22,292 bases of DNA from a virus. The notes under the pieces are model-generated. The model saw only the letters and a program-made list of their open reading frames with translations. It had not been told where the DNA came from and did not search any database. Shown piece by piece: positions 659 through 21,994 of this stretch; the first letter of the stretch is position 1, and the number at the start of each line of letters is the position of its first letter. The stretch is taken from the IMG/VR virus record IMGVR_UViG_3300026209_000016, positions 1 to 22,292 of that record. One strand, 5' to 3'. Made by a program: the position numbers and the translations under genes.

Positions 659-1762
659 TTACGAGTCAAAACGGACTAAAAATGAAATTGGTAAATCTTT
701 ATCGTTTTTAATTGGATTAGATAATTTTGCAATGGCTAATAACTCCTTTTCATCATTATAAAGACCTATGTTAGTAACATAAGTCCCAAATTCTGAATGT
801 GTTGTGAAATTTTGATATTCTGTTCCTGCATTATAAGATGATAAATAAGAACTACTTGCGGCTGGTAATACTAAATCAGCAGTAGCTTCATATTGGGGAT
901 TACCCCAATTCCCATTATAATTATATCGAGCTCCTTGAGGAATTTGTATACTTCCACTCCTACCTACAACTGTGCTTGGATTTGTTGTGCCAGTAAATTG
1001 ATATTCATCTACACTACAAAGATATTCATATTCAGTAGAAGTTTTAGTTGCTTGAAATCTTATAGACCAACCATCACCACCAGTTCCAAGTCCAATATTA
1101 GTATATGAAGAACCAGTATTTGTAATTGCAACTATACCATGTTCATAAAATATATTTCCTATACAACTTCCACTACCTTGTGCTGTAAGAGTTCCTATTG
1201 CAAAACTTGAAGAATATGCATAATCATATAATTGTCCATATCCATCATCTCTTAAATCTATAGTTACATCAGTGCTATCATCAAGAATTTTAACAGAGTA
1301 TGGTTTTACTTCTTCACCAAAATATTTTTGTGGAATTGTTATAACATTTACTGTATCATGTAATTCTCTCGGAACTATTGAACCCCAATCTTCTCTACTA
1401 TATGGATATTTCCTACTCCAATTTCCCCCTGTATATGGAGGATATCTTGTTACAGTAGATTTTGGATTAGGAATTGTATCATATTGATAATATGAATTTC
1501 TTATTTGATAATATAAAGGAAGTTTAAAAAATGTTCCACAACTATACCAAGTATCCCAAGAATGACCTAAACTTTTAGAGTCTGAATTAAAAACTCCAAA
1601 ACTTTGAGATGCAGCAGAGCCTGTTAAAAAATTATGAAAACTTCCACTTATACCTTCAAGACCAAAAACTCCACTTCCACTATCTGAATGTGTAAAAGTG
1701 AATTGTTTATAGGTTTTGAACTCTTTTATTGACCTATCATCAGAAGATATACCCTTAAACAT
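659..1762 (-). CDS. Phage structural protein, diverged third copy of the GLYNxxxELLAxAKLS family
   Basis: This is a 367-aa protein, started by ATG after an AAGGAG site 11 nt behind the previous stop. It is the most diverged of three tandem paralogues. It keeps the C-terminal motif YVTNIGLYNDEKELLAIAKL and ends LVRFDS, parallel to KVRLDF in its neighbours. The middle also aligns by eye: an I-V-x-I-P-QKYFGEEVKPYSVKI block (around residues 142-160) corresponds to the RYRExxDPGNWELHL block of the others. FYEHGIVAITN corresponds to FYPELGLIILN, and a late CSV...NPS to their FCRV...NPTYF. I recognise the pattern from uncharacterised virion proteins of marine T4-like phages. The C-terminal GLYN/ELLA motif recalls the strand pair of P2-type tail-collar fibre N-terminal domains (xxGLFDxxGxLIAxA). 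A fibre or fibre-attachment role is therefore likely but unproven. Confidence 0.65.
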   Translation of the reverse strand: MFKGISSDDRSIKEFKTYKQFTFTHSDSGSGVFGLEGISGSFHNFLTGSAASQSFGVFNSDSKSLGHSWDTWYSCGTFFKLPLYYQIRNSYYQYDTIPNPKSTVTRYPPYTGGNWSRKYPYSREDWGSIVPRELHDTVNVITIPQKYFGEEVKPYSVKILDDSTDVTIDLRDDGYGQLYDYAYSSSFAIGTLTAQGSGSCIGNIFYEHGIVAITNTGSSYTNIGLGTGGDGWSIRFQATKTSTEYEYLCSVDEYQFTGTTNPSTVVGRSGSIQIPQGARYNYNGNWGNPQYEATADLVLPAASSSYLSSYNAGTEYQNFTTHSEFGTYVTNIGLYNDEKELLAIAKLSNPIKNDKDLPISFLVRFDS

Positions 1763-1773
1763 TGGAATCTCCT

Positions 1774-2829
1774 TTAAAAATCAAGTCTTACTTTGATAAG
1801 TGCTTCAGTATTTGAATCTTTTTTGAATGGTCTCGATAACTTTGCAACTGCTAATAACTCATTATTATCATTATAAAGTCCTACTGATGTAATGTAAGTA
1901 TTTGGTTCTCTAATAAAAGAACTATTATATATTGATGCGTTATCACCAGTAAAATAAGATGGATTTTGACTGTGATTATACTCAGCACCCAATACTTTAC
2001 AAAAATACATTGAACTTCGTTTTTGTTCTTCTCTACGAGCTGAAAAATATGAACCACTTTGTATTGAATATAATAATTTTCTATGATTAAGATTGTTTGT
2101 AGAAGTACTTTTTACAAGTGGTTTTATAAAAGCAGATGGATCATTTGAATCTACTGAACCAGATGCTAATGAATTTGGATTTAAAATTAACATTCCCATT
2201 TCTGGATAAAATAAACCATATGAACCAGAATTTGAAGCTGCAGCTGATGCTGAAGCGGTAGTATGTACTCCATCTGCAATTGAACCAGAAACTATATTAA
2301 ATTCTCGTTTTGAATTTCCAAGTAATGGATTTACATTTGCGTTACTATCGTCTATTAAATTAATACTATTACTTCCACTTGTCAAATGTAATTCCCAGTT
2401 TCCTGGATCCATCTTTTCTCGGTATCGTGCCCTATTTGCAACAATGGCAAAAACATCATCACTATAATAATTTTCCCCTGAATCTCCATGAAAATTAAAT
2501 TGAGTAGTTTGGGCTGGAAGTAAAACTTGTCTTAATTGTGAATATATTCCTTTAGTTGGATTTGTTGTTCCTGTAGTAGTTGAACCTTCTGAACCAGAAC
2601 CAAGTCTGTGACCGTATGTTACCGAAAACTGTACTTCGGTAGATTGATCAGTTGTTGTATGTACATCATAATAATATTTACCATTATTAGAATCTTGAAT
2701 TGATCCAGTAAAAAAAGTAGTTAAAGTTCCTGTAGAATCTGACCACATTGGTTCGGCCACAGTACTATATAAATTTTCTACTTTATTTACCTTCCCATCG
2801 TCATCTATAAATGATTTAAACACGGGCAT
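1774..2829 (-). CDS. Phage structural protein, second copy of the GLYNxxxELLAxAKLS family
   Basis: This 351-aa protein is preceded by AGGAG 8 nt from its ATG. It is clearly homologous to the 357-aa upstream neighbour over its whole length. Shared landmarks are an N-terminal PxWSxxxxTLTxFxTGS, then YYYDV, an EVQFxxxYGHxxGSGS stretch, RARYREKMDPGNWELHL, GSYGLFYPEMGMLILNPN, a SRREEQ-like SARREEQKRSSMYFCKV, SQNPSYF, and the C-terminus TSVGLYNDNNELLAVAKL ending KVRLDF. It is rich in Ser, Thr, Gly and Asn, as phage fibres and decoration proteins are. There is no signal peptide, transmembrane segment or enzymatic motif. It is presumably a virion component of the tail tip, part of a three-gene duplicated set. 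The exact location in the particle cannot be told from the sequence. Confidence 0.65.
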   Translation of the reverse strand: MPVFKSFIDDDGKVNKVENLYSTVAEPMWSDSTGTLTTFFTGSIQDSNNGKYYYDVHTTTDQSTEVQFSVTYGHRLGSGSEGSTTTGTTNPTKGIYSQLRQVLLPAQTTQFNFHGDSGENYYSDDVFAIVANRARYREKMDPGNWELHLTSGSNSINLIDDSNANVNPLLGNSKREFNIVSGSIADGVHTTASASAAASNSGSYGLFYPEMGMLILNPNSLASGSVDSNDPSAFIKPLVKSTSTNNLNHRKLLYSIQSGSYFSARREEQKRSSMYFCKVLGAEYNHSQNPSYFTGDNASIYNSSFIREPNTYITSVGLYNDNNELLAVAKLSRPFKKDSNTEALIKVRLDF

Positions 2830-2846
2830 ATCTAAATCTCCTATTC

Positions 2847-3920
2847 TTAAAAGTCTAATCTAACTTTGATTACCGCTTCTCTATCTCTCGATTTCAATAA
2901 AGGTTGACTTAACTTTGCAACTGCCAACAACTCATTATTATTGTTATAAAGACCAACCGTAGTTATATATGCTTTTGGATCTTGAATGAAAGTAGTATTA
3001 GTCAATTCTGTAGTAGTACTATCAAAGTACGTTGGATTTTGACTCCAATTATATTTGTCAGATTCAACCCTACAAAAGAAATGAGAAGATTTAATTTGTT
3101 CTTCTCTACGGGATTGAAAATATCCACTACCCTGACCAGCTATAATAAGTTTATTGTATAATTTCATTGAATTATCATCATTTGTTCCTGCACTTTCAAC
3201 CGTCGCAAGGGCTAAACCAGGTGGACTAGCTGCCGTTCCTTGATCTAATCTTGTAGCGTTTAATATAATAAGTCCTAATTCTGGATAGAAAAGTCCATAA
3301 CTTCCAACTGCACTTGATGCAAAGTCTGAAGCTGCTTCACCAGCTGGTGAAACAGCAGTTCCAGTTGCTATTGAACCACTAATTACATTAAAAACTCTCT
3401 GTGATGCATTAACAGATGAATCTGAAGTTGCTCCACTATCATCAATTAACTTAATCAGGCCTGGATCTCCAGTTCCCAAGTGTAATTCCCAGTTTCCTGG
3501 ATCCAATCTTTCTCTATACCGTGCTCTATTTACGTTGATAACATAAATATCTTTAAACACATTTGTATTATTTTCAGGAAATTCAAACTTTGAATCACTG
3601 TTTGCGTTTCTAATACAAATATTTCTAAACTGACGATATATAGCTTTAGATGGATTATTTCCCGCAGAAGTAGACAATGATCCACTTCCATCGAAATGTC
3701 CATAAGCTATTGCAAACTGAACTTCTCGTGTGGTATCAGTACCAACTTTATCAAATACATCGTAGTAATAATCACCACTACTTCCACTTTGTGCGGAACC
3801 AGTATAGAAGGAGGTTAAAGTTGTTGCCCCTCCAGACCACACAGGGGAAGATATAGTACTTGGTATATTAGTCCTTTTATCTGTTCCTGCTAATTCGGTG
3901 AAAAAATCGTTTTCTGCCAT
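2847..3920 (-). CDS. Phage structural protein, first copy of the GLYNxxxELLAxAKLS family
   Basis: This 357-aa protein opens the three-gene cassette. AGGAG at 3928-3932 precedes its ATG. Order of conserved blocks: SSPVWSGGATTLTSFYTGS near residue 25; YYYDVFDK; REVQFAIAYGHFDGSGS; RARYRERLDPGNWELHLGTG (about 130-150); LIDDSG; QRVFNVISGSI; GSYGLFYPELGLIILN; SRREEQIKSSHFFCRV; SQNPTYF; and the C-terminal TTVGLYNNNNELLAVAKLSQ. A 25-nt exact DNA match to the next paralogue codes for the DPGNWELHL block. The family resembles uncharacterised marine myovirus virion proteins. The C-terminus resembles the attachment part of P2-type tail-collar fibres (family knowledge, weak match). A host-contact fibre or its adaptor is my best guess. 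Confidence 0.65.
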   Translation of the reverse strand: MAENDFFTELAGTDKRTNIPSTISSPVWSGGATTLTSFYTGSAQSGSSGDYYYDVFDKVGTDTTREVQFAIAYGHFDGSGSLSTSAGNNPSKAIYRQFRNICIRNANSDSKFEFPENNTNVFKDIYVINVNRARYRERLDPGNWELHLGTGDPGLIKLIDDSGATSDSSVNASQRVFNVISGSIATGTAVSPAGEAASDFASSAVGSYGLFYPELGLIILNATRLDQGTAASPPGLALATVESAGTNDDNSMKLYNKLIIAGQGSGYFQSRREEQIKSSHFFCRVESDKYNWSQNPTYFDSTTTELTNTTFIQDPKAYITTVGLYNNNNELLAVAKLSQPLLKSRDREAVIKVRLDF

Positions 3921-3982: not shown

Positions 3983-4336
3983 TTATTTAGCCGGTCCCTT
4001 ACCACCACCGGATTCACCACCTTTACCACCGCCGGATCCACCACCGGATCCACCTCCAGATCCGCCTCCATATCCACTACCACCGCCGGATCCACCACCA
4101 TAACCAGAACTGGGTGGTAAAGCAACTATTGTTGCAGATGTAGAATCTTCTCCATTATCATTTTCCACAGTTAAAGTAACATTCCATACTCCCTGTGAAA
4201 ATGTATGAGTTGGATTTCGTAATGACGAAGTTTGACCATCTCCAAAATTCCATAAAAACTTTAATCCATCTCCAGATGAAGTATCAGTAAAATTAACTGT
4301 TAGTGGTGCGTAATTCATTGTTCCTCCAGCTCCCAT
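3983..4336 (-). CDS. PKD-domain protein with glycine-rich tail
   Basis: This 117-aa protein starts with ATG 7 nt after AGGAG. Residues about 9-74 are a PKD (Ig-like beta-sandwich) domain: YAPLTVNFTDTSSGDGLKFL, the hallmark WNFGDG, then NPTHTF and VWNVTLTVENDNGED. Residues 78-115 are a Gly/Ser/Tyr/Lys tail built on GGGS units. PKD domains occur in surface proteins and mediate protein or carbohydrate contacts; Gly-rich tails often act as flexible linkers or bind glycans. The first PKD strand (usually PxANF) is missing from this ORF. It is present at the very end of the upstream ORF, which is in the same frame with one stop codon between. The domain may thus be completed by readthrough, by assembly in trans, or by the local MGAGG start. 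It is likely a displayed tail component (inference). Confidence 0.75.
   Translation of the reverse strand: MGAGGTMNYAPLTVNFTDTSSGDGLKFLWNFGDGQTSSLRNPTHTFSQGVWNVTLTVENDNGEDSTSATIVALPPSSGYGGGSGGGSGYGGGSGGGSGGGSGGGKGGESGGGKGPAK
3990..4105 (-). repeat. Glycine-codon repeat tract (GGGS units)
   Basis: This is a low-complexity, G-rich coding tract on the minus strand, much richer in G+C than its surroundings, built from recurring units such as GGTGGATCC. It encodes the GGGS-type tail of the PKD protein. Such tracts change length easily by slippage, so the tail length may vary between relatives. Confidence 0.75.
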
Positions 4337-4348: not shown

Positions 4349-4879
4349 TTAAATGATATTATGAGTGAAATTTGCCATTGGTGAACTACCGGGTGGGGGG
4401 CTACCCTCTTCCGATACCTCAAAAATAAAATTAGATGTAGGTGGAGTATCTGGATTATACATTTCAGCTACATTATCATGTCCAAGAACAAATTCATATT
4501 CTTCTACTCCATCAAAATTATCTGTTATAGGAGCAATTACAATCTTATCTCCTTGCCCTCCTAACACAACTTGTGCGGGTATATTTGATAATTCAAAAGC
4601 TATAGCCATTTCAGGTGCATCTGTCATAAAATAATTCATAATCTCTTGCTGATTAAGAAATCCCTCTACTAATGGCATATTTTCAATCACTCTACCTCTA
4701 AAATTAGATGATAAAGATTCATCATATAAAGAATAATCAATTTCATCGTCACCTAATGCAAATTTAGTAATTACATACGAATCATCAACAGCCCCTGCGA
4801 GTGCGTTTGCTAAAAGTTCTCTACCTTTTTTAGTAAAAGTTGCTGTTACTGTTTGTGTTGTTTTATCCAAATATCCCAT
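4349..4879 (-). CDS. KFALxDDExDY-family structural protein, copy 4, ending in a PKD-like first strand
   Basis: This 176-aa protein starts MGYLDKTTQTVTATFTKKGR, then has the family hallmarks ITKFALGDDEIDYSLYDE and VIENMPLVEGFLNQQEIMNY (about residues 35-85). The shared N-terminal domain of about 85 residues is found in three neighbours. The family resembles uncharacterised marine T4-like virion proteins. The shape also recalls P2-type tail-collar fibre N-termini, in which a similar ITKxALGD motif occurs. The C-terminal half is a different beta-rich domain. The tail carries PPTSNFIFEVSEEG and SPMANFTHNII, both looking like PKD first strands (PxANF). A single TAA separates this from the in-frame PKD gene. 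The start has a weak AAGGA site 11 nt upstream. It is probably a virion surface component. Confidence 0.65.
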   Translation of the reverse strand: MGYLDKTTQTVTATFTKKGRELLANALAGAVDDSYVITKFALGDDEIDYSLYDESLSSNFRGRVIENMPLVEGFLNQQEIMNYFMTDAPEMAIAFELSNIPAQVVLGGQGDKIVIAPITDNFDGVEEYEFVLGHDNVAEMYNPDTPPTSNFIFEVSEEGSPPPGSSPMANFTHNII

Positions 4880-4893
4880 TTCTATTAAAATCC

Positions 4894-5154
4894 TTAACTA
4901 TATATAAAACTCGCAATTGGTCCACGTATTGGATCTGGATCTACTTCTGGTGGATAATATTCTAAAACTGCATCTCCTGGATTTACTACAACATTAACTG
5001 TCCAAGATGTTCCAGTTGACATTCCCGTAATCTTTAAAGTACTATTTCTTATTGTAGTAACTTTTTTGGCCTTTAAACTAACTGCACTACCATATGTAGT
5101 TTTCTCTTTACCTACTCCATCTTCTCCTGTTTGTCCTGCTCCTAATACACTCAT
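4894..5154 (-). CDS. Detached C-terminal half of a KFALxDDExDY-family protein
   Basis: This 86-aa protein lacks the conserved N-terminal domain. Its body (KAKKVTTIRNSTLKITGMST then GTSWTVNVVV) resembles the C-terminal strands of the longer paralogues (TSRETSIIITGQMSGAIYVL). It ends DPIRGPIASFIYS, similar to the start of a PKD domain. It begins 2 nt after the stop of the 103-aa ORF, in another frame, with no strong ribosome binding site, so it probably depends on translation of the upstream ORF. Both flanking frames have stops at the junction (TAA and TGA), so a simple frameshift error is unlikely. The pair 5157-5468 plus 4894-5154 looks like one family member divided at its domain boundary. 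The similarity is by eye and modest. Confidence 0.6.
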   Translation of the reverse strand: MSVLGAGQTGEDGVGKEKTTYGSAVSLKAKKVTTIRNSTLKITGMSTGTSWTVNVVVNPGDAVLEYYPPEVDPDPIRGPIASFIYS

Positions 5155-5156
5155 AA

Positions 5157-5468
5157 TTAATTCTCAATAATTCCGTTTTTAAATAAAAAATATTTCATAG
5201 TTTCACCATCAGTAGGTGATCTCCAATTAACATTTGGTTCTGTTAATGGTTGGTTATCAATTACTTGACCATATGGTTTTACAAAATTTGAACCACTCGG
5301 TGTTACATCCCATAACCCATAATCTATTTCATCATCACTTAGTGCAAATTTAGTAATTACGTGTTCACCATTTTGATTTTCACCAAATACTGCTTTTCTT
5401 AAATAATCTATACCCTTTTTAGTAAGAATTGCGTCTACTGCTAATGTATCTTTATTTATAAATCCCAT
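5157..5468 (-). CDS. KFALxDDExDY-family structural protein, copy 3, N-terminal domain only
   Basis: This 103-aa protein consists only of the family's conserved N-terminal domain: MGFINKDTLAVDAILTKKGI, VITKFALSDDEIDYGLWD, VIDNQPLTEPN and MKYFLF. It then stops just where the paralogues enter their variable C-terminal part. The start is supported by alignment with three neighbours (MGF/MGY) and a weak AGGA 8 nt upstream. The next ORF, 2 nt away, supplies what looks like the missing C-terminal half. The conserved domain may be the particle-anchoring part and the C-terminal regions the exposed part. That is inference from which portion is conserved. Confidence 0.65.
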   Translation of the reverse strand: MGFINKDTLAVDAILTKKGIDYLRKAVFGENQNGEHVITKFALSDDEIDYGLWDVTPSGSNFVKPYGQVIDNQPLTEPNVNWRSPTDGETMKYFLFKNGIIEN

Positions 5469-5477
5469 AATTTATTC

Positions 5478-6170
5478 CTACGTAGTGTTATTTACATAAT
5501 TAACTTTTACTGGTAAAACATAAATTGCTCCTGACATTTGACCAGTTATAATAATTGATGTTTCTCTTGAAGTTCCCATATCTCCCATTAATGTTTTTAT
5601 TCCTGCTTCTCTACCTACTACTTTCTTACTCGTTCTACCAGTTTCTTCACCATAAACAGCTCCAACATTATAATCTACACTTCCGTCTGTTACAATTCCT
5701 ACATCAACTACATTTTTATTTAAAACTAAAAAACTATAATTCTCTCCCGAAAACGCTTGTTCTGCCCCCTGTGTATTTGGATTTAACTGAACATTCTCAT
5801 ATGCCCATGTGGGTGATGTAGAATTACCTGTCAATTGGGTTGTCAATGCGTTGGCTCCGAGAAATGAAGGTGGAGTCATATTACCGATATAAGGTAACGC
5901 TTTAGTTCCTACATCCATCGTAAATAATTTATACTTCATTACAACTTCAGGATCTACACAAGGTTCTAACATTGGTGTAGATTCTAAAACTGCACCATAA
6001 TAATCAGTTCCTTTCGGGTGTGCTGTATCCCATAAAGTGTAATCTATCTCATCATCACTTAAAGCAAATTTAGTAATATTAAACTTACCATCACTTTTTG
6101 CGAGATATTGTTTACCCTTCTTGGTTAATACTGCATTTAATATGTATGAAGTATTATTTATAAATCCCAT
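5478..6170 (-). CDS. KFALxDDExDY-family structural protein, copy 2
   Basis: This 230-aa protein has GAGGT 5 nt before its ATG. The N-terminal domain (1-90) reads MGFINNTSYILNAVLTKKGK, FNITKFALSDDEIDYTLWD, then HPKGTDYYGAVLESTPMLEP and MKYKLFT. It is closest to the 276-aa neighbour, sharing the GTDYYGAV block and the C-terminal TSIIITGxxSGA strand followed by a PVxV strand. The central region, about residues 100-190, differs from all other copies, with an AFSGENYSFLVLN segment that matches the neighbour's LYAGENYTVTLLD. There is no signal peptide or catalytic motif. It is a likely virion protein of the tail or baseplate periphery, one of a duplicated set. Confidence 0.65.
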   Translation of the reverse strand: MGFINNTSYILNAVLTKKGKQYLAKSDGKFNITKFALSDDEIDYTLWDTAHPKGTDYYGAVLESTPMLEPCVDPEVVMKYKLFTMDVGTKALPYIGNMTPPSFLGANALTTQLTGNSTSPTWAYENVQLNPNTQGAEQAFSGENYSFLVLNKNVVDVGIVTDGSVDYNVGAVYGEETGRTSKKVVGREAGIKTLMGDMGTSRETSIIITGQMSGAIYVLPVKVNYVNNTT

Positions 6171-6180
6171 TTTTTACCTC

Positions 6181-7011
6181 TTATGATGAAAAAGTAATCG
6201 TTACTGGAAATTCTATTACTGCTCCTGATAATTCCCCAGTTATTATAATTGAAGTAGTTGAAGTTGCCGAAACTTGTTTTGGATAAAGAACAAGATTTCT
6301 TGGCTCCCCACCAGTAAATTCTAATGTACTTCCATCACCGATAGCAATACCTGATATTGTTTGTGATATATGTTGTACATTATCTACAAACGGGACCCAT
6401 ACAAAGTCTGACCCTACTGGTCCAGTTTGAGCATTTCCTTCAGTCTCAATCAATTGGGTCCCATTCGGTAAAGCCGAAAAAGCTGGTGCCAATACAGCTA
6501 CACTTGAATCCAATAAAGTTACAGTATAATTTTCACCTGCATAAAGTGCATAATCCGTACCCTGTGGAAATTGAACTGTATTATCATGTTGTTCAATCGA
6601 TATCGTAGCAGTCGAAGTTCCAATTTGAGAAGTTGTTAACTCTCCTGCTCCAATACTAACCTTATCGGTTGAAACTCCATCTACCCAACTCAAACCAACA
6701 AGTCCGGCTGTAGTCTGGCCTAACGCATTTAATTTAGCCATTGCCCGAGTTCCTTCAGACCTCGTTACAAGTTTATACTTCATAATCTCAGAAGGATCAT
6801 TAAATGGTTCAAGTGCAGGCAAATTGTCAATTACCGCTCCATAATAATCTGTTCCTTGTGTATGAGTGGTATCCCATAAAGCGTAATCAACTTCGTCATC
6901 ACCTAACGCAAATTTACTTACTTCAAAGTTACCACCACTTGACAAAATTTCTCGACCTTTCTTTGTCAATATGGCGTCTAATATTCTTGTTGAATTGTTT
7001 AAATATCCCAT
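6181..7011 (-). CDS. KFALxDDExDY-family structural protein, copy 1
   Basis: This 276-aa protein opens the tandem cassette, with AGGAG 8 nt before the ATG. The N-terminal domain is MGYLNNSTRILDAILTKKGR, FEVSKFALGDDEVDYALWD, HTQGTDYYGAVIDNLPALEP and IMKYKLVT. The remainder is a long Thr/Ser/Gly-rich beta-strand region with LYAGENYTVTLLDSSV in the middle and TTSIIITGELSGAVIEFPV at the end. It is the longest and most complete member, so it is the natural reference for the split copy downstream. I know the KFALxDDExDY motif from hypothetical structural proteins of marine T4-like phages; no function has been assigned that I can cite. The position straight after the giant wedge/fibre gene fits a distal tail structure. 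Confidence 0.65.
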   Translation of the reverse strand: MGYLNNSTRILDAILTKKGREILSSGGNFEVSKFALGDDEVDYALWDTTHTQGTDYYGAVIDNLPALEPFNDPSEIMKYKLVTRSEGTRAMAKLNALGQTTAGLVGLSWVDGVSTDKVSIGAGELTTSQIGTSTATISIEQHDNTVQFPQGTDYALYAGENYTVTLLDSSVAVLAPAFSALPNGTQLIETEGNAQTGPVGSDFVWVPFVDNVQHISQTISGIAIGDGSTLEFTGGEPRNLVLYPKQVSATSTTSIIITGELSGAVIEFPVTITFSS

Positions 7012-14294: not shown

Positions 14295-15812
14295 TTATCT
14301 CACTACTTTAAATGAATGTTTCTCATCAAAATATTGAACGGTTTCATCAGCAGTTCCACTACCACTTACTACCTTATAGTTTATTCTATAAAATCTTTCT
14401 GCCTGTAATCCATTCATCCACACATTGAAATAGTTTCCTGTAGAATCACAACTTACTACTGAACCACTTCCAAATGGAACTATAACATCTTCTGTATATG
14501 CGTCTTTAATTTGATAATAAGTACTTCCACTTGGTAGATATTTTGCTGTTGTATATCCCGTACTATATCCACTTGTGGAATACGACTTTTCGGGATACCT
14601 TGCTCTACCAACTACTCTAAATTTTACTTTTGAAGTTTCTTTATATTCTGGACGAAATCCTCTCATATAAAGAACCATATCTTCAACCTCGGTATTAGAA
14701 AGTGCTGATAATGAACCAGTCGTCCATTTAGAATCATCCCAAACTACTTCTAATTTTGGTTGATAAACTGTATGTGTATCTCTACCAAAATATAAAAAAT
14801 GTCCATAATGTGTAGTACTTCCTTCATCTTCAGTAGTGGAATACTCCATACTACCACTTCTCTTTATCATAAATCCTTCATTTGGAACTGTACTACCTAA
14901 CCACTTCCATACAATATCGGTTACATCCATTCTCAAATCTGATGGTTCGTGGGTAAAGGATTGTGAGGCCTCATATCCACTTCCACTATACCAAGTTCCA
15001 CCACCACCCGATAACGTTGTTGTAGAATCTGTTCCACCTTCTACGGCATACGCACTACTTCCATCAAATACAAATAATCCTGAAGATGATGCTGCACTTA
15101 AATTAGAATTAGTTCCTGCAGAACTTCCAGATAAAATTAAATAATCTGGATTACTACCAACTACACTAGCAGAGATAGGTAAGGAATGTAATGAACTACT
15201 ATTATTAATAACATCTCTCAAACTTGTAACAGAACTACCAGTAGTTGAACCTGATGTTACAAATATTTCTGTTGAACTATTATCAAATACAGAAGTTGAA
15301 CCACTTACAAATACAAAATCCACTCCACCAATAGTAACTTCTTGATTATTATAATCACCTTCATTAATTGTTAAAGTTCCATCTGCATAAGTATTTCCTT
15401 GTAATGTAGAATAACTTCCATACCAAGGAGTTGCCGTATCATTATTATCTTTAAACTTCCAACTTGCCCCATCTTCAATTATTGGATTAGAGTGTGCTCG
15501 GCCCGAACCCATATCCCAACTCTGACTTACTGGATACCCATATAAGTTTTGTGTTACATTTAATTCTCTTGAACTTGCATCATATAAATTTAAATAAAAT
15601 TTTGTTTTTGATCCTGATGTAATTAAATTAGATGCTACTGATTTAGAAATATAAGTCAAATCAAATTTAATTAATGCACGAGAAACATTTACTACTGAAC
15701 CGTCTGCGTTCATATCTTTTCTAATCTCAAGAATTTCATCAAGTCCAGTATTCATACTTGCACTTGATTCATATAATGTTGTATCTTTTGTTGCGTATTC
15801 GAAATAATGCAT
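14295..15812 (-). CDS. DNRLRE-like baseplate/fibre protein with an inserted beta domain
   Basis: This 505-aa protein overlaps the gp6-like stop by one base. The N-terminus (MHYFEYATKDTTLYESSASM, NTGLDEILEI, then RALIKFDLTYIS) matches the start of DNRLRE-type extracellular beta-sandwich domains. The rest of that pattern reappears at about 296-358 (MDVTDIVWKWLGS, NEGFMIKRSG, FLYFGRDT, QPKLEVVWDD). Between the halves, at about 142-245, sits a Ser/Gly/Thr-rich segment (VTIGGVDFVFVSGSTS ... SLRDVINNSSSL). It resembles small beta domains of phage tail proteins with the form VTIxGVxFxFV...LxxxIN. Residues 360-505 are another beta domain (FRPEYKETSKVKFRVVGRAR to FYRINYKVVSGSG). It is likely a baseplate-peripheral or fibre protein that contacts polysaccharide or other virion parts. 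A counterpart in T4 (gp8 or gp10 position) cannot be assigned from sequence. Confidence 0.6.
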   Translation of the reverse strand: MHYFEYATKDTTLYESSASMNTGLDEILEIRKDMNADGSVVNVSRALIKFDLTYISKSVASNLITSGSKTKFYLNLYDASSRELNVTQNLYGYPVSQSWDMGSGRAHSNPIIEDGASWKFKDNNDTATPWYGSYSTLQGNTYADGTLTINEGDYNNQEVTIGGVDFVFVSGSTSVFDNSSTEIFVTSGSTTGSSVTSLRDVINNSSSLHSLPISASVVGSNPDYLILSGSSAGTNSNLSAASSSGLFVFDGSSAYAVEGGTDSTTTLSGGGGTWYSGSGYEASQSFTHEPSDLRMDVTDIVWKWLGSTVPNEGFMIKRSGSMEYSTTEDEGSTTHYGHFLYFGRDTHTVYQPKLEVVWDDSKWTTGSLSALSNTEVEDMVLYMRGFRPEYKETSKVKFRVVGRARYPEKSYSTSGYSTGYTTAKYLPSGSTYYQIKDAYTEDVIVPFGSGSVVSCDSTGNYFNVWMNGLQAERFYRINYKVVSGSGTADETVQYFDEKHSFKVVR

Positions 15813-17758
15813 TAGATGTCTCCCATTACCCTACCTCGAATATCTATATCCGGGTATTTTATTTCAAAGATTGCAGGATCTGTTGATGGATAAACTACTC
15901 CATTAAAAGTTGCATCTGGAATATCATATAAATTATTAGAATAACCCTGTGCAGCTCCATTTTTATTATTAATTACAATTAACCGTTGTTCTGTGTTAGG
16001 ATCTTGATTGGGTGGATTGACTACGGTAGCTACTCCCTCAACTGAAACTATTTCAGATGCCACATCAGCCAATATGATTGGTTGATTTATTTGCCACTTA
16101 TTTATACTAAAATAAAGTTTTAATTTATCAACACATTTCAATAACACTTCATTTTTATTAAATCCTCTTTTAGTAAGAACTGCAAACTCAACTCCAATAT
16201 TACATATCCACGCATCCTTTAATTGAACTGCATCAGTCATCATTCTATACTGACTCAAATATACTTTTATATTTTCTTTTACAGCATCATTTATTCTAAC
16301 TAACTTTCCGGTGTTATCATAACCAAGCATATACATATTTAATGCCAATGGATTAGGTTGGAATGTCGGGTCTGTTTCATTCTGTCCAGTTGCTGCAACT
16401 TGTTCATCTTGTATAATATAAACTTTTGCTATATTACCATATTTAGGTGGTAACGAATAAACACGAGTTATATAATCATCTTTGGTTACTGCCCTTCCTT
16501 GTGCTTGGAAATATGCAAGTGCATTCACTCTAACATCCTCAAGTGTTTCTGCTCCACCGCCTCCAGTTGCTGGTTTTGGATTTGATGTTGCCGTGGAGTT
16601 CAAAGTTATAGTTTTCATATTATCATCTAAACTCAAAAAATTATCAAATACAGGTGATTGTAAAGTAATATTATTAACACTATTAGATGCTACATTATCA
16701 TCTATCCCACCCCCATAAGAATATTTTATAGTTAATGTTGTATTTGTTGGACATTGACCATAAGTGTCCGTATTTAAAAAATTTGCCGGATCAAAAGCTG
16801 TATCAAGAAAACTCGGTGTACCTGGTAAATTTGAACCAACATTAGTTGGATTTGGAATAATTTCTTCATCTGCTCCTGCTGCTATTCCAGAACCAAATCT
16901 CATTTCTGTTTTACCATCTGGTCTTATATAAGTTTTAAATCTTTTGGATGTCTTTACAAGTTTTAAAAGAAATGGTGCAAAGTTTCTACCTTCTACTAAA
17001 TCAGGAGAATTATTTGTAGTATTCTCAAAATCTGCATATACCGTGTCTTGTGCTAAGAATGGAACTTCATACCAACTATTTCCATCACTATCCGTTACTG
17101 AAATTATTTCTAATACTGGATCAGAATTCAATACAATTCTTTTATACCTTTCTGCTGCTCCAAATGTTATATAATCCGTAGTAACCGTTCCACTAACCGC
17201 CTTTACTGATTTCTTTAATAACCATTTTGTAATATTTGCAGGATCTTGATCATCAAGTTCAAAAATAACATCTTCTCTTGGACTTAATGAACTTGAATCT
17301 CTAAATGCTACATCACCCGTTGTTCTAAAAACTGTTCCATTCGTAGATGTTGCCTGTAATCCTGATGGAATATGCAAACAATAATCTTCATTTGGTTGTC
17401 TTTTTTCATCTACAACATTATTAGGATCTGATGGTACAGTTTGGAATACATCAAGAGTTACAGATGCTGGTGATGACTGTCTTGGTTTATATCCATATCC
17501 TTGTGCAATTTCGTATATGGTTTTCTTTTCTTCTGCAAAAGCTAACATACTTTCTTTAAATTGTTCATCCATATAATAGGATAAAGTATCACCAACATAA
17601 GATGCCATCTCAATGAACATCATACCTGGGTCTGATTCATTAAAATCATTATATGTGTTTGGAAAATATGTTTTAGCAAATTCTATTAAACTATTTCTAA
17701 ATGCAGAAAAGTCTTTGTTTAAATATTTTACGTCTTTATGACCAGGTGCATGAGGCAT
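15812..17758 (-). CDS. Baseplate wedge protein, gp6-like (baseplate J-related)
   Basis: This 648-aa protein is about the same length as T4 gp6 (660 aa). Its start has GGGAGA about 7 nt upstream. The N-terminus has the classic pattern DFSAFRNSLIEFAKTYFP, NESDPGMMFIEMASYVGDTL, SYYMDEQFKESML, in which the first helices pack in the wedge. The C-terminal half carries the baseplate-J-like signature RAVTKDDYITRVYSLPPKYG NIAKVY (about 416-440), followed by a domain with YRMMTDAVQLKDAWICNIGV and KVKL-type helices (about 503-548). Gp6 forms dimers that make up the inner ring of the baseplate and joins gp25 and gp53/gp7 in the wedge. The gp25 gene directly precedes it and the DNRLRE-like gene is coupled to it by a TAATG overlap. 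I am confident of the family. Confidence 0.9.
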   Translation of the reverse strand: MPHAPGHKDVKYLNKDFSAFRNSLIEFAKTYFPNTYNDFNESDPGMMFIEMASYVGDTLSYYMDEQFKESMLAFAEEKKTIYEIAQGYGYKPRQSSPASVTLDVFQTVPSDPNNVVDEKRQPNEDYCLHIPSGLQATSTNGTVFRTTGDVAFRDSSSLSPREDVIFELDDQDPANITKWLLKKSVKAVSGTVTTDYITFGAAERYKRIVLNSDPVLEIISVTDSDGNSWYEVPFLAQDTVYADFENTTNNSPDLVEGRNFAPFLLKLVKTSKRFKTYIRPDGKTEMRFGSGIAAGADEEIIPNPTNVGSNLPGTPSFLDTAFDPANFLNTDTYGQCPTNTTLTIKYSYGGGIDDNVASNSVNNITLQSPVFDNFLSLDDNMKTITLNSTATSNPKPATGGGGAETLEDVRVNALAYFQAQGRAVTKDDYITRVYSLPPKYGNIAKVYIIQDEQVAATGQNETDPTFQPNPLALNMYMLGYDNTGKLVRINDAVKENIKVYLSQYRMMTDAVQLKDAWICNIGVEFAVLTKRGFNKNEVLLKCVDKLKLYFSINKWQINQPIILADVASEIVSVEGVATVVNPPNQDPNTEQRLIVINNKNGAAQGYSNNLYDIPDATFNGVVYPSTDPAIFEIKYPDIDIRGRVMGDI

Positions 17759-17770
17759 TTAATTTCTCCC

Positions 17771-18199
17771 TTATTCTTTAATGGCCGATTCAAACTGATC
17801 AAAACTTACTGAAACAGTTCCGAACCTATCAGGCTCAAATGATAATCCAAAATCTATTGATATATTTACTCTGTTAATATTATAATCTGGCATCGTAATT
17901 TCTATATTTTTAATGTTTATGTATGGCAACCATTTTTCAAGTGAACTTCTAATTGAATCTTCTAATACATCTCCAAAATCTTCATTCATTGGTTCAAACA
18001 ATATTGAATGTAATTGTGATCCAAACTCAGGCTGTCCCAACCTTTCACCAGGAATTGTTTTTAACAAATTTATAATATTATATTTTGCCTGTTGAAGTGT
18101 AGTTTTAGTTTGTTTGAAATATCCTGTATCTGAATATCCCATAGGAAGTTTTAATCCAATGAAAACATCTGGATTTAAATCTTTTTCTCTTGCTCCCAT
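17771..18199 (-). CDS. 25: Baseplate wedge subunit, gp25 (GPW/gp25 family)
   Basis: This 142-aa protein is close to the 132 residues of T4 gp25. The diagnostic block is IPGERLGQPEFGSQLHSILF at about residues 48-67, matching the GPW_gp25 signature (xxGER.....FGxxLxxxLF). The second half has the family's beta-alpha-beta layout with SSLEKWLPYINIKNIEI, then NRVNISIDFGLSF. Gp25 is the sheath-initiating wedge component; its core bundle with gp6 and gp7 is conserved across contractile injection systems. The start ATG overlaps the stop of the preceding gene by one base. The order gp25 then gp6 is the usual one in contractile tails. Confidence 0.93.
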   Translation of the reverse strand: MGAREKDLNPDVFIGLKLPMGYSDTGYFKQTKTTLQQAKYNIINLLKTIPGERLGQPEFGSQLHSILFEPMNEDFGDVLEDSIRSSLEKWLPYINIKNIEITMPDYNINRVNISIDFGLSFEPDRFGTVSVSFDQFESAIKE

Positions 18200-18818: not shown

Positions 18819-19370
18819 CTATGGACGAAAATTCGTTCCGCCACCTTTTTTCTGGTCAATAGCTTTCAAAACAGCTGAATAATCTCGTGTTAATGCATCT
18901 TGTACATGGTCTGGAACTTGATCAACATTTACTCTTGCATTTTTGATAGTTTGAACTGCTCCAATATCTCGTTTCTTCTGTTTTGTAGCTTCTGTAGTTG
19001 GTGCTCCTGCGGGTGAACCAGCCAAAACATCATTTATCTTACTCGAATCAAATACTCCATCACCTAAAGTTGGATAATCTTCATATCCTCCAACTTGTGG
19101 TGCTCCACCTTCACCTTGTGGAACTCCACCAGCGGTTTCATTTAACACTTTGTTAAGAGCCGTGTTTGATGTATAATGAACCTCTTTTTTGGGTTTAGCT
19201 TTATACTGTTTTCTGATAGGTTCTTTGAACTCTTTTTCAGTTAATGGTTTTGAAACTAATTCGGTAAGTGAAGATGAATTTTCTTCTTTAATAAATATCT
19301 CATTCATTTGTTTTTTGACTTCCTTACGAACTACTGTTTCAATTATTTTTATTAACTCTTGTTTCTTCAT
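18819..19370 (-). CDS. Hypothetical protein with charged N-terminal helix and Gly-rich middle
   Basis: This 183-aa protein has AAGGAG 8 nt before its ATG. The first 30 residues form an amphipathic, probably coiled-coil helix (MKKQELIKIIETVVRKEVKK, QMNEIF), a kind of N-terminus frequent in short T4-like marine phage proteins. The centre (about 75-125) is Gly/Pro/Ala-rich and likely disordered (AGGVPQGEGGAPQVGGYEDY). The C-terminus has VQDALTRDYSAVLKAIDQKK, again helical, and ends GGGTNFRP. No catalytic motif is visible. Its position between the Cys-rich spike-adjacent gene and the gp25 neighbour suggests a structural or assembly role. The function is unknown. Confidence 0.55.
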   Translation of the reverse strand: MKKQELIKIIETVVRKEVKKQMNEIFIKEENSSSLTELVSKPLTEKEFKEPIRKQYKAKPKKEVHYTSNTALNKVLNETAGGVPQGEGGAPQVGGYEDYPTLGDGVFDSSKINDVLAGSPAGAPTTEATKQKKRDIGAVQTIKNARVNVDQVPDHVQDALTRDYSAVLKAIDQKKGGGTNFRP

Positions 19371-19383
19371 TTTATTATCTCCT

Positions 19384-20739
19384 TTATAAACCTCTTAAAT
19401 AATCTTGTAATACTGGACTTGCAAAACATCTATTTAATTCTTCCATCTGCTTAACAAGTTCATTTGTAAGTGCTGAAGTATCTACTTCATCAAAATCTGT
19501 ATCGGTATCTAAATCTGTCCAAGTACCACTTGCTTCTTCACAAGATTTCTTATCTAAGTGTTCTGTTATAGAACAAAATCCAATGGATTCATCTTCATCA
19601 ATACCTAAATTTTCAGCAGATATCTTATCATACATATCTTGTAAATCTTTTAAATCTTGTGGATCTATCCAAGTTCCACCTGCTGCCTCGCAGGCTTCTT
19701 TACTGTCTGGAGGTGAATCACCAGCTTGTACTGCACACATTGCTAAAATACTCATTAGTTGTGCCTGTAATACAGGAACAATTGTTGTAAATCTACCGAT
19801 TGTTTTTATTAATAAACTAACACACATATCAACTAATCCCATAATATTTAATACTTTCATTAATGCTTCAATTATAGGAACTACAAATGGTGGTGTCCAT
19901 TTTAAAATCTTTCTAACTATCTTTATGACCTTTTGAATAATCTTTATAACTTTAATTATCGCCTTTATTATTACCATCATTTCCATCATCCACGCCATCA
20001 CATCCAACATAGTTTTAATGGCCCTTTTTACGGGAGGAGTACAAACATCTTCTGGATCAATTACTGCTTTAGCCATTATAGCATCAACTTCTGCTGATAA
20101 CTTCCCCAATACCTTATTAAGTTCACCCATCATCTCTTGTATTTTCGCGGTGAATCCAGATAACATCCATGCCTGTAAATCAGGAATTTCCAAATTTGCT
20201 AATTGTGCAAGCCAATCTTCTTCTTCCTCTGTAGGTAAATTAACATTTCCTGCCCCCACACAAAAACCTTTATCTTCATCTTCTCCTGGATCACTAGCGG
20301 TAAGAGGATCAGGACCCGCTATTGCTCCTTCATTTTCTACAATATGTGGTGCACCAAACCAAGTTCCACCATCTTTAACTTGTCCTGCATGAATTTGAGT
20401 TCCTACTGGAACAGTTTCTCCTGGATCAAACTGAAATAAATCATTACCAACATCTGGCCATAATACAGTTGCTCCATTTGCTCCTGCGTATGCACACATA
20501 TCATCTTCACCGATAATAATAGGGGCAAATACTTCAGTTCCACCTTCACAAGTTAGAATCCAAGTTCCACCTGCAGACTCGCATTCCTCTTTCGTTTCAA
20601 CTTGTGGAATTGAACATGAACCAACCTCATTTCCATTTATAAAAACAGAACCATCTATTAATTCACATCCAGCTATTAATCTATCACCTGGTCCTAATGT
20701 TATTTTTTGTCCTGCTATTGATTTACATCTATGTGCCAT
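19384..20739 (-). CDS. Cys-rich possible spike-tip protein with cationic amphipathic helix
   Basis: This 451-aa protein of unrecognised family starts 1 nt after the gp5-like stop. Residues 1-42 (MAHRCKSIAGQKITLGPGDR, then CELIDGSVFINGNEVGSC) loosely recall PAAR tip proteins (GSxxVFINGxPxxxxGDxxxC). H3, C5, C25 and C42 could form a metal site. A motif C(E/S)xAxGTW follows a Lys/Glu-rich turn three times: at about 50-60, 345-356 and 395-406 (KEECESAGGTW, KEACEAAGGTW, KKSCEEASGTW). Residues about 250-280 form a strongly cationic, Ile-rich helix (IIKAIIKVIKIIQKVIKIVR KILKW), within a longer hydrophobic stretch up to about 335. Next to a gp5-like spike gene this suggests a tip or membrane-active cargo (inference). 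A tape-measure role is unlikely given the length and the Cys content. Confidence 0.5.
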   Translation of the reverse strand: MAHRCKSIAGQKITLGPGDRLIAGCELIDGSVFINGNEVGSCSIPQVETKEECESAGGTWILTCEGGTEVFAPIIIGEDDMCAYAGANGATVLWPDVGNDLFQFDPGETVPVGTQIHAGQVKDGGTWFGAPHIVENEGAIAGPDPLTASDPGEDEDKGFCVGAGNVNLPTEEEEDWLAQLANLEIPDLQAWMLSGFTAKIQEMMGELNKVLGKLSAEVDAIMAKAVIDPEDVCTPPVKRAIKTMLDVMAWMMEMMVIIKAIIKVIKIIQKVIKIVRKILKWTPPFVVPIIEALMKVLNIMGLVDMCVSLLIKTIGRFTTIVPVLQAQLMSILAMCAVQAGDSPPDSKEACEAAGGTWIDPQDLKDLQDMYDKISAENLGIDEDESIGFCSITEHLDKKSCEEASGTWTDLDTDTDFDEVDTSALTNELVKQMEELNRCFASPVLQDYLRGL

Positions 20740-20740
20740 A

Positions 20741-21994
20741 TTATGTTGTCTTTACTATATCACTCTTTGGATCATTTAATCGAGTTTTTAATAATTTAAG
20801 TGATCCTTCTAATCCCATACACCCCTCTTTAATACCTGATACTGGAACTACAAAATCTACAACTGATCCCTTTGCACCCTGCATAGTAGTACTAAACTCA
20901 ATTAAATAATCAATTAATTTATCTACAAGATCCATTGTCTGGTCACCCTTCAATACTGGTTCAATCTGAGGTACATCACCACTTGGAAATCCCGTTGTTT
21001 TTCCTTGTTCTGGTGCACTACCAAGATATACTTTTTCATGTCCTTCTAAAACAATTCTATTTTTACTAACTAAATTTATATCATTGTCTGAATATAAAAA
21101 TGCATTTTTTCTTGAATTAAAAACTATTCTATCAGAATTTAAAATTATTTGTTTTCCACTACTATCTGTTCTAAATTTTGGATCCAAATCTTTAACTTTA
21201 CTTTTCTCATGAGTAAGTGGAACTAATTGATCAGTAGTCATCCATAAAGAAGCACCATCTAAATCTATATCTTCTTTTACTGGCTTATAATCTACTGTTT
21301 CTTTTACACCCTGTCCTACTCTCATAATAAGATTAGGTGAATTAACTTTTCCTGTATTTTCCTTTACACCATCTTCAGTTTTAATCTCTTTTATATTACT
21401 ACCAAACCTAATTGAATTTCCAAACCTACCATTAAATGCTATATCACCTTCTTCTACATCAATTTGTCTTATACTAATATTAGGATCTGTTATCTTTGGT
21501 AGATTCTCTTTATACTTATCTGGAATAGTTCCCTTTGTAAAATTAGTTAAATACTTACTTATTCCAGGGTAAGAATTATTAGTTACAACATTATGAAAGT
21601 TCATTTTCTGAGTATAATAAAAATCTTCTGCTCCACCAAGAACATATTGAGCGGCTATAACGGACTCTCCTGGATAAGGATAATCCTTAATATTTGCATC
21701 CATTGGTTTCATAATACGAGTATCACCTTCATGTGCACTACTATAAAATAATCTAGCCTTTATCCATCCATACTTTGACCAATCAGGTTTATCCTTATTA
21801 GGTCCTTTAGTTATTAAAGGTAAATCTTCTTCATCTAACCAAATTTCCAATACCTCTGCCAATTCCAATTCATAAAATTCAGTCGGAGGTGTATCTTTAA
21901 TTGCAGTATAAATATCTTTTATTTTAGCAGGACCTTCTGACAATCCATGAAAAGCATCAACTACTTCTTCAGCCGCTCTTTTAAACCAACCCAT
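20741..21994 (-). CDS. gp5-like baseplate hub/spike protein without lysozyme domain
   Basis: This 417-aa protein has AAGGAAA upstream and overlaps the previous stop by one base. Residues about 39-125 look like the N-terminal OB-fold of T4 gp5-type hubs (ELELAEVLEIWLDEEDLPLI, GWIKARLFYSS, IKDYPYPGESVIAAQYVL), followed by FYYTQKMNFHN. At about 176-226 lies a conserved block I know from marine T4-like phages (EEGDIAFNGRFGNSIRFGSN, LIMRVGQG). Residues about 276-324 are short alternating strands (KQIILNSDRIVFNSR, NDINLVSKNRIVLEGHEKVY), in the manner of the gp5/VgrG beta-helix spike. No lysozyme catalytic segment is present, unlike T4 gp5 (575 aa). The spike would puncture the outer membrane. A gp5 assignment is moderate; it is not identical in domain content. 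Confidence 0.6.
   Translation of the reverse strand: MGWFKRAAEEVVDAFHGLSEGPAKIKDIYTAIKDTPPTEFYELELAEVLEIWLDEEDLPLITKGPNKDKPDWSKYGWIKARLFYSSAHEGDTRIMKPMDANIKDYPYPGESVIAAQYVLGGAEDFYYTQKMNFHNVVTNNSYPGISKYLTNFTKGTIPDKYKENLPKITDPNISIRQIDVEEGDIAFNGRFGNSIRFGSNIKEIKTEDGVKENTGKVNSPNLIMRVGQGVKETVDYKPVKEDIDLDGASLWMTTDQLVPLTHEKSKVKDLDPKFRTDSSGKQIILNSDRIVFNSRKNAFLYSDNDINLVSKNRIVLEGHEKVYLGSAPEQGKTTGFPSGDVPQIEPVLKGDQTMDLVDKLIDYLIEFSTTMQGAKGSVVDFVVPVSGIKEGCMGLEGSLKLLKTRLNDPKSDIVKTT

Follow-up and report, generated by a model that had tools for sequence, protein, structure and literature searches.

In the window, the whole 22,292-nucleotide stretch of DNA analysed here, the gene adjoining the central spike encodes p451, a conserved and undescribed virion-type protein that combines a small β domain, a predicted cysteine-bracketed helical hairpin and small Cys motifs. 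We propose, with a probability of about 0.4, that p451 would assemble with the central spike/hub as an accessory, non-enzymatic virion protein that aids envelope passage. In the proposed arrangement, the N-terminal β domain is probably the docking part, and an acidic linker would lead into two long helices folding back at a Pro-Pro hinge and bracketed by C233 and C335. Helix 1 of this hairpin would carry a conserved lysine stripe, while the Cys-GTW modules would represent small baseplate-type modules. The cationic hairpin would then contact either a membrane or an acidic partner, helping the spike through the host envelope.

The first-pass annotation had placed the gene at 19384-20739; ORF calling on the window returns the same coordinates and assigns the gene to the minus strand, with a product of 451 aa. 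The p451 ATG lies one base past the spike stop codon, and the gene order spike–p451–p183–p202–gp25–gp6 is constant in p451 loci, as far as each locus extends:

20741..21994, minus strand: gp5-like spike of 417 aa in which no lysozyme was detected (ORF, profile search)
19384..20739, minus strand: p451 (ORF; full-length IMG/VR relatives and a diverged branch)
18819..19370, minus strand: p183, conserved gene bordering the variable slot opposite the spike (present in 74/83 gp6-anchored loci)
17771..18199, minus strand: gp25-like baseplate wedge protein (PF04965, E 6.6e-12; phrog_261, E 2.3e-20)
15812..17758, minus strand: gp6-like baseplate wedge protein (phrog_6, E 1.5e-19; 47% identity to Mel-JY01)

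The spike is 27–30% identical to ORFs of Microcystis phage Mel-JY01, Flavobacterium phage immuto and LR756508, and profile search detects no lysozyme domain in the spike protein, in agreement with the initial reading of it as a gp5-like spike devoid of that domain. The view of p451 as a conserved gene beside the spike is likewise upheld, by full-length relatives in IMG/VR and by the constant gene order. In a counterpart of p202 (L054, 5883-6905, plus strand), the C-terminal domain is of the gp53-like tail fibre type (PF21882, E 1.2e-18), which makes p202 a possible short fibre protein. Separately, an ORF of PP395634 annotated as 'tail lysozyme' (L056, 6981-7484) is hit by a gp25 profile derived from the window gp25, and this label is probably a misannotation.

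The window derives from an uncultured marine phage. Its p451 belongs to a near family with full-length relatives in IMG/VR, and a second, diverged branch comprises 23 loci; judged from these searches, the two-branched family appears only in uncultured viruses, on records that are mostly fragments rather than complete genomes. Neither p451 nor the diverged members of both branches find a relative in INPHARED (50,697 phage records), none was found in GTDB genomes, and no curated relative of p451 is present in Pfam, PHROG or PDB. The PDB sequence matches that did appear (succinyl-CoA ligase at E 0.0012, and others) were judged to be chance. The family is conserved, and the phage collection searched holds no cultured relative of it; six invariant cysteines together with P283 and K273 are kept in both branches.

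Two features define the N-terminal part of the protein:

20314..20739, minus strand: N-terminal β domain, residues 1-142 (β-strands in AlphaFold2)
20548..20616, minus strand: insert, residues 42-64, with the first C-x10-C-x3-GGTW module (only in the window and its 85–95% relatives)

The AlphaFold runs on p451 draw on shallow alignments; the β domain is modelled with fair confidence over residues 10-142, and the AlphaFold2 pLDDT is about 74–88 over most of residues 11-140, falling to 59 in block 91-100. Fold matches for this domain are cupin/CNBD-like at Z of only 5.6–6.9, leaving room for unlisted folds (PAAR conical fold, pseudo-threefold base), and Foldseek returns no match in PDB or BFVD at E≤0.001. 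Within the protein, GPGEPIIPGCELIDGSG / DPGESVPVGTQIHQGQV forms an internal repeat that is weak, with 2 of 500 permutations reaching it. The insert occupies the same N-domain loop in which L048 (2026-3591, plus strand) carries a PPVGSPxGxPPPV...DGNIWVWEGTPSPGQW unit in duplicate, which marks this loop as an insertion hot spot.

The N-terminus had at first been taken for a PAAR-like start, which would make p451 a PAAR-type spike tip. The position of the gene is comparable to that of T4 gene 5.4, the PAAR tip encoded between genes 5 and 6, and the small N-terminal β domain and invariant C5 agree with such an assignment. In PAAR structures, conserved His and Cys residues form a metal site. The cysteine half of the proposed Cys/His start holds in the family (C5 in 43/43, C25 in 37/43), whereas H3 is present in only 4/42 members and no histidine is invariant (H117 37/45, H132 13/45, H394 35/48), so that the conserved His set is missing. 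The window p451 gives no PF05488 match at E≤1; six-frame translations of 11 records (Mel-JY01, immuto, the window and eight of its viral relatives) likewise give none at E≤1, with seven control genomes positive, and PF05488 is absent among the best 25 of 29 Pfam families listed for 34 p451 members. Moreover, p451 shows no sequence or profile similarity to T4 gp5.4 (hhalign probability 1.2%), and the PAAR-looking GSVFINGN of the window protein is not family-wide, most relatives having GSGIFxN. Given also the cupin/CNBD-like fold matches, a PAAR tip is extremely improbable.

The interval between spike and p183 is variable in content. A gp6-anchored survey with a simple ORF caller yields 53 loci holding both flanking genes, and in 36 of these the slot is empty, 25 having a spike shorter than 470 aa and 11 a spike of 470–629 aa, most of the latter with helical C-terminal extensions. 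Six loci carry short, helical proteins containing a hydrophobic hinge, and another six carry 150–185 aa proteins of a different type, the two types having been sorted by reading sequences rather than by formal clustering. p451 occupies two loci, and one locus each has a GH19-like lysin (Mel-JY01), a 371-aa helical protein (immuto) and a 335-aa protein (L313). These varied contents, together with the position of T4 gene 5.4, make the slot look like a site of optional spike-side modules, and a slot that is empty, holds a muralytic enzyme or holds helical proteins offers a natural comparison set for envelope passage by contractile phages whose spike has no lysozyme.

The Mel-JY01 slot protein (PP395634) is an enzyme (phrog_181 endolysin, E 9.9e-33) without sequence relation to p451. 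Because that genome encodes another phrog_181 lysin elsewhere, the slot copy is plausibly tail-associated and the other the endolysin. This lysin, seen in a single related phage, fits a role of the slot in passing the cell envelope. SLT and phrog_181 lysins were not found in the p451 records, most of which are fragments. Since the slot is optional and its possible occupants include a muralytic enzyme as well as other helical proteins, we infer that p451 may be a non-enzymatic envelope-passage module. The same adjacency to the spike, optional presence in relatives and acidic character would also suit a factor outside the virion that assists spike assembly or acts as a spike chaperone; Cys-GTW modules of baseplate type, along with the six invariant cysteines, would be more typical of a virion protein, and we regard the chaperone role as very unlikely.

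The immuto slot protein, gene 156 (MW353175; L057, 6393-7508), is annotated 'DNA repair ATPase, RecN' although it lies in a baseplate operon flanked by spike and gp25; the label is probably a misannotation, and the protein resembles a helical hairpin protein.

The central part of p451 is organised around a proline hinge:

19897..20031, minus strand: long helix 1, residues 237-281, with the Lys/Ile cationic amphipathic part at 250-281 (AlphaFold and sequence statistics)
19876..19899, minus strand: Pro hinge W281-T-P-P-F-V-V-P288 (P283 in 48/49, P288 in 45/49)
19726..19875, minus strand: long hydrophobic helix 2, residues about 287/289-338 (AlphaFold; Kyte-Doolittle maximum 1.96 at 285-303)

The Lys/Ile helix noticed at first reading is confirmed, with 8 K/R and a single D/E in residues 250-281. 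The hydrophobic moment of residues 258-281 is 0.85, a value reached by 0.12% of shuffles of those 24 residues, and the 24 residues preceding the hinge carry 7–10 K/R and 0–1 D/E in both branches, with P283 present in 12/12 and 12/13 members of the two. Specifically, K266 (48/49), K273 (44/47) and K277 (46/49) are near-invariant.

Both branches keep C233 and C335 without exception; each lies 51 residues from P284, so that their midpoint coincides with the hinge. A comparable geometry is found in two other occupants of the slot: immuto gene 156 possesses only two cysteines, and these lie at equal distances from a Pro-rich hinge amid long helices (midpoint 205.5, in IPTPTAIIPP), and the cysteines of the L313 protein (midpoint 108) are equally spaced about a Pro-containing hinge. 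Homology of these proteins to p451 is undetectable, and the shared spacing suggests that p451 forms a cysteine-braced helical hairpin, though with six cysteines chance is not negligible for p451 alone. By hhalign, no homology of p451 to immuto gene 156 or to the Mel-JY01 lysin is found, and a 24–38% probability for the L313 protein against the p451 helices was not accepted as homology.

Models of the helical part have low confidence (AlphaFold, pLDDT 55–56, pTM 0.46), and VIA on the helical model retrieves STAT coiled-coil domains at Z 10.9, below the Z 13 advised for helical bundles. Hydrophobic helix 2 and a match to the tape-measure family phrog_305 over residues 190-332 (E 1.6e-4) raise the alternative of an ejection-channel or tape-measure-like protein, with hydrophobic helices that would insert into the inner membrane and let DNA through. 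These families share the hydrophobic helical composition of p451; the reversed p451 sequence, however, also matches phrog_305 (E 0.0096), so much of the match is composition, and on this control a tape measure identity was rejected. p451 is also far shorter than a tape measure, and the channel role appears unlikely. A weak match of phrog_788 'tail protein' to the helical part of diverged members was left aside because all 14 of 14 control genomes match it too.

The Cys-GTW modules are the third component of the protein, and two of them follow the hairpin:

19669..19737, minus strand: second Cys-GTW module, C335-x14-C350-x3-GTW, residues 335-357 (both branches keep C335 and C350 invariant)
19519..19575, minus strand: third Cys-GTW module, C389-x10-C400-x3-GTW, residues 389-407 (Pfam Gp10_D3; absent from branch 2)

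All three C-x-x-A-x-G-T-W motifs reported from the sequence are present, as CESAGGTW (53-60), CEAAGGTW (350-357) and CEEASGTW (400-407). Copy 1 is a lineage-specific insert in the N-domain of the window protein and its closest relatives, whereas the near family retains copies 2 and 3 (C350 49/49, W357 47/49, C400 47/48, W407 48/48). The consensus C-x10-C-x3-GG-x-W is found at residues 42-60 and 389-407, the latter with SGTW in the window and GGTW in most relatives, while residues 335-357 have the x14 spacing. Gp10_D3 (PF22670) matches 32/34 p451 members (best E 2.9e-6). Inspection of the T4 sequences places the same module in gp8 (Phage-Gp8, PF09215; C142/C153, GGKW) and in domain 3 of gp10 (C331/C342, GGTW), but only this module of about 20 residues is common, the remainder of p451 being unrelated to gp8 and gp10 by sequence. 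Matches of Pfam Gp8 and phrog_977 at residues 34-77 cover the inserted GTW module only.

A DNA-pattern scan of viral contigs extends this distribution: among the matches listed, most GTW copies lie in unrelated ORFs, with a partner Cys at -11 in 46/108 and at -15 in 36/108, the 108 including a few p451 relatives missed by a simple filter. The motif is real and is no p451-specific feature; it is a common small baseplate/virion module, Cys-x10/14-Cys-x3-GG-x-W. Literature searches on the Cys-GTW motif and on Mel-JY01 gave nothing useful.

The occurrence of these modules in the T4 wedge proteins gp8 and gp10 suits a hub or baseplate connector with a purely structural role, in which the Lys/Ile helix would be buried in a helical bundle or paired with acidic segments of p451 itself or of a neighbour, without membrane contact. 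Such a connector agrees with the conservation of the helix 1 lysines as K at exact positions, K/R exchange being almost absent, with the net charge of -47 for p451 minus residues 240-285, and with the AlphaFold placement of the Lys/Ile helix inside a multi-helix bundle, itself of low confidence. It argues in the other direction that the p451 gene is optional among related phages, which gp25 and gp6 are not. The structural connector and the spike-accessory, envelope-passage protein are equally likely.

Within the spike-accessory reading, insertion of the p451 hairpin into a membrane is possible on its charge and hydrophobicity pattern. For the T4 spike tip complex, liposome binding is not seen (PMC7600766). 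This result, the K-not-K/R conservation and the coiled-coil-like periodicity of 3.4 residues per turn over residues 237-281 count against membrane contact, and a buried or partner-binding helix explains the pattern equally well. The lysine conservation and the low-confidence bundle packing of the helix would nonetheless fit a membrane-active helix no less than a packed structural one. Rather doubtful is the broader scheme in which phages of this group would swap slot content between a wall enzyme and non-enzymatic cysteine-braced hairpins, with the cationic hairpin of p451 crossing the envelope by action on the membrane rather than by wall cleavage.

Several other genes were observed in passing. 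On the minus strand of the window, a 115-aa ORF at 249-596 has a weak MscS β-domain match (PF00924, E 0.012, below the cut-off), three tandem paralogues with a C-terminal LLAxAKLSxPxxK lie at 659-3920, and an ORF at 3983-4336 combines a PKD domain (PF18911, E 3.9e-15) with a Gly/Ser-rich tail. Further tandem paralogues at 4349-7011, also on the minus strand, start with MGxxNxxTxxLxAxLTKKGRExL, also contain KFALxDDEIDYxLWD and are likely repeated tail or neck proteins. In the related viral contig L023, an ORF at 1723-2916 (plus strand) reads as IMP dehydrogenase / GMP reductase-like by inspection of its sequence.
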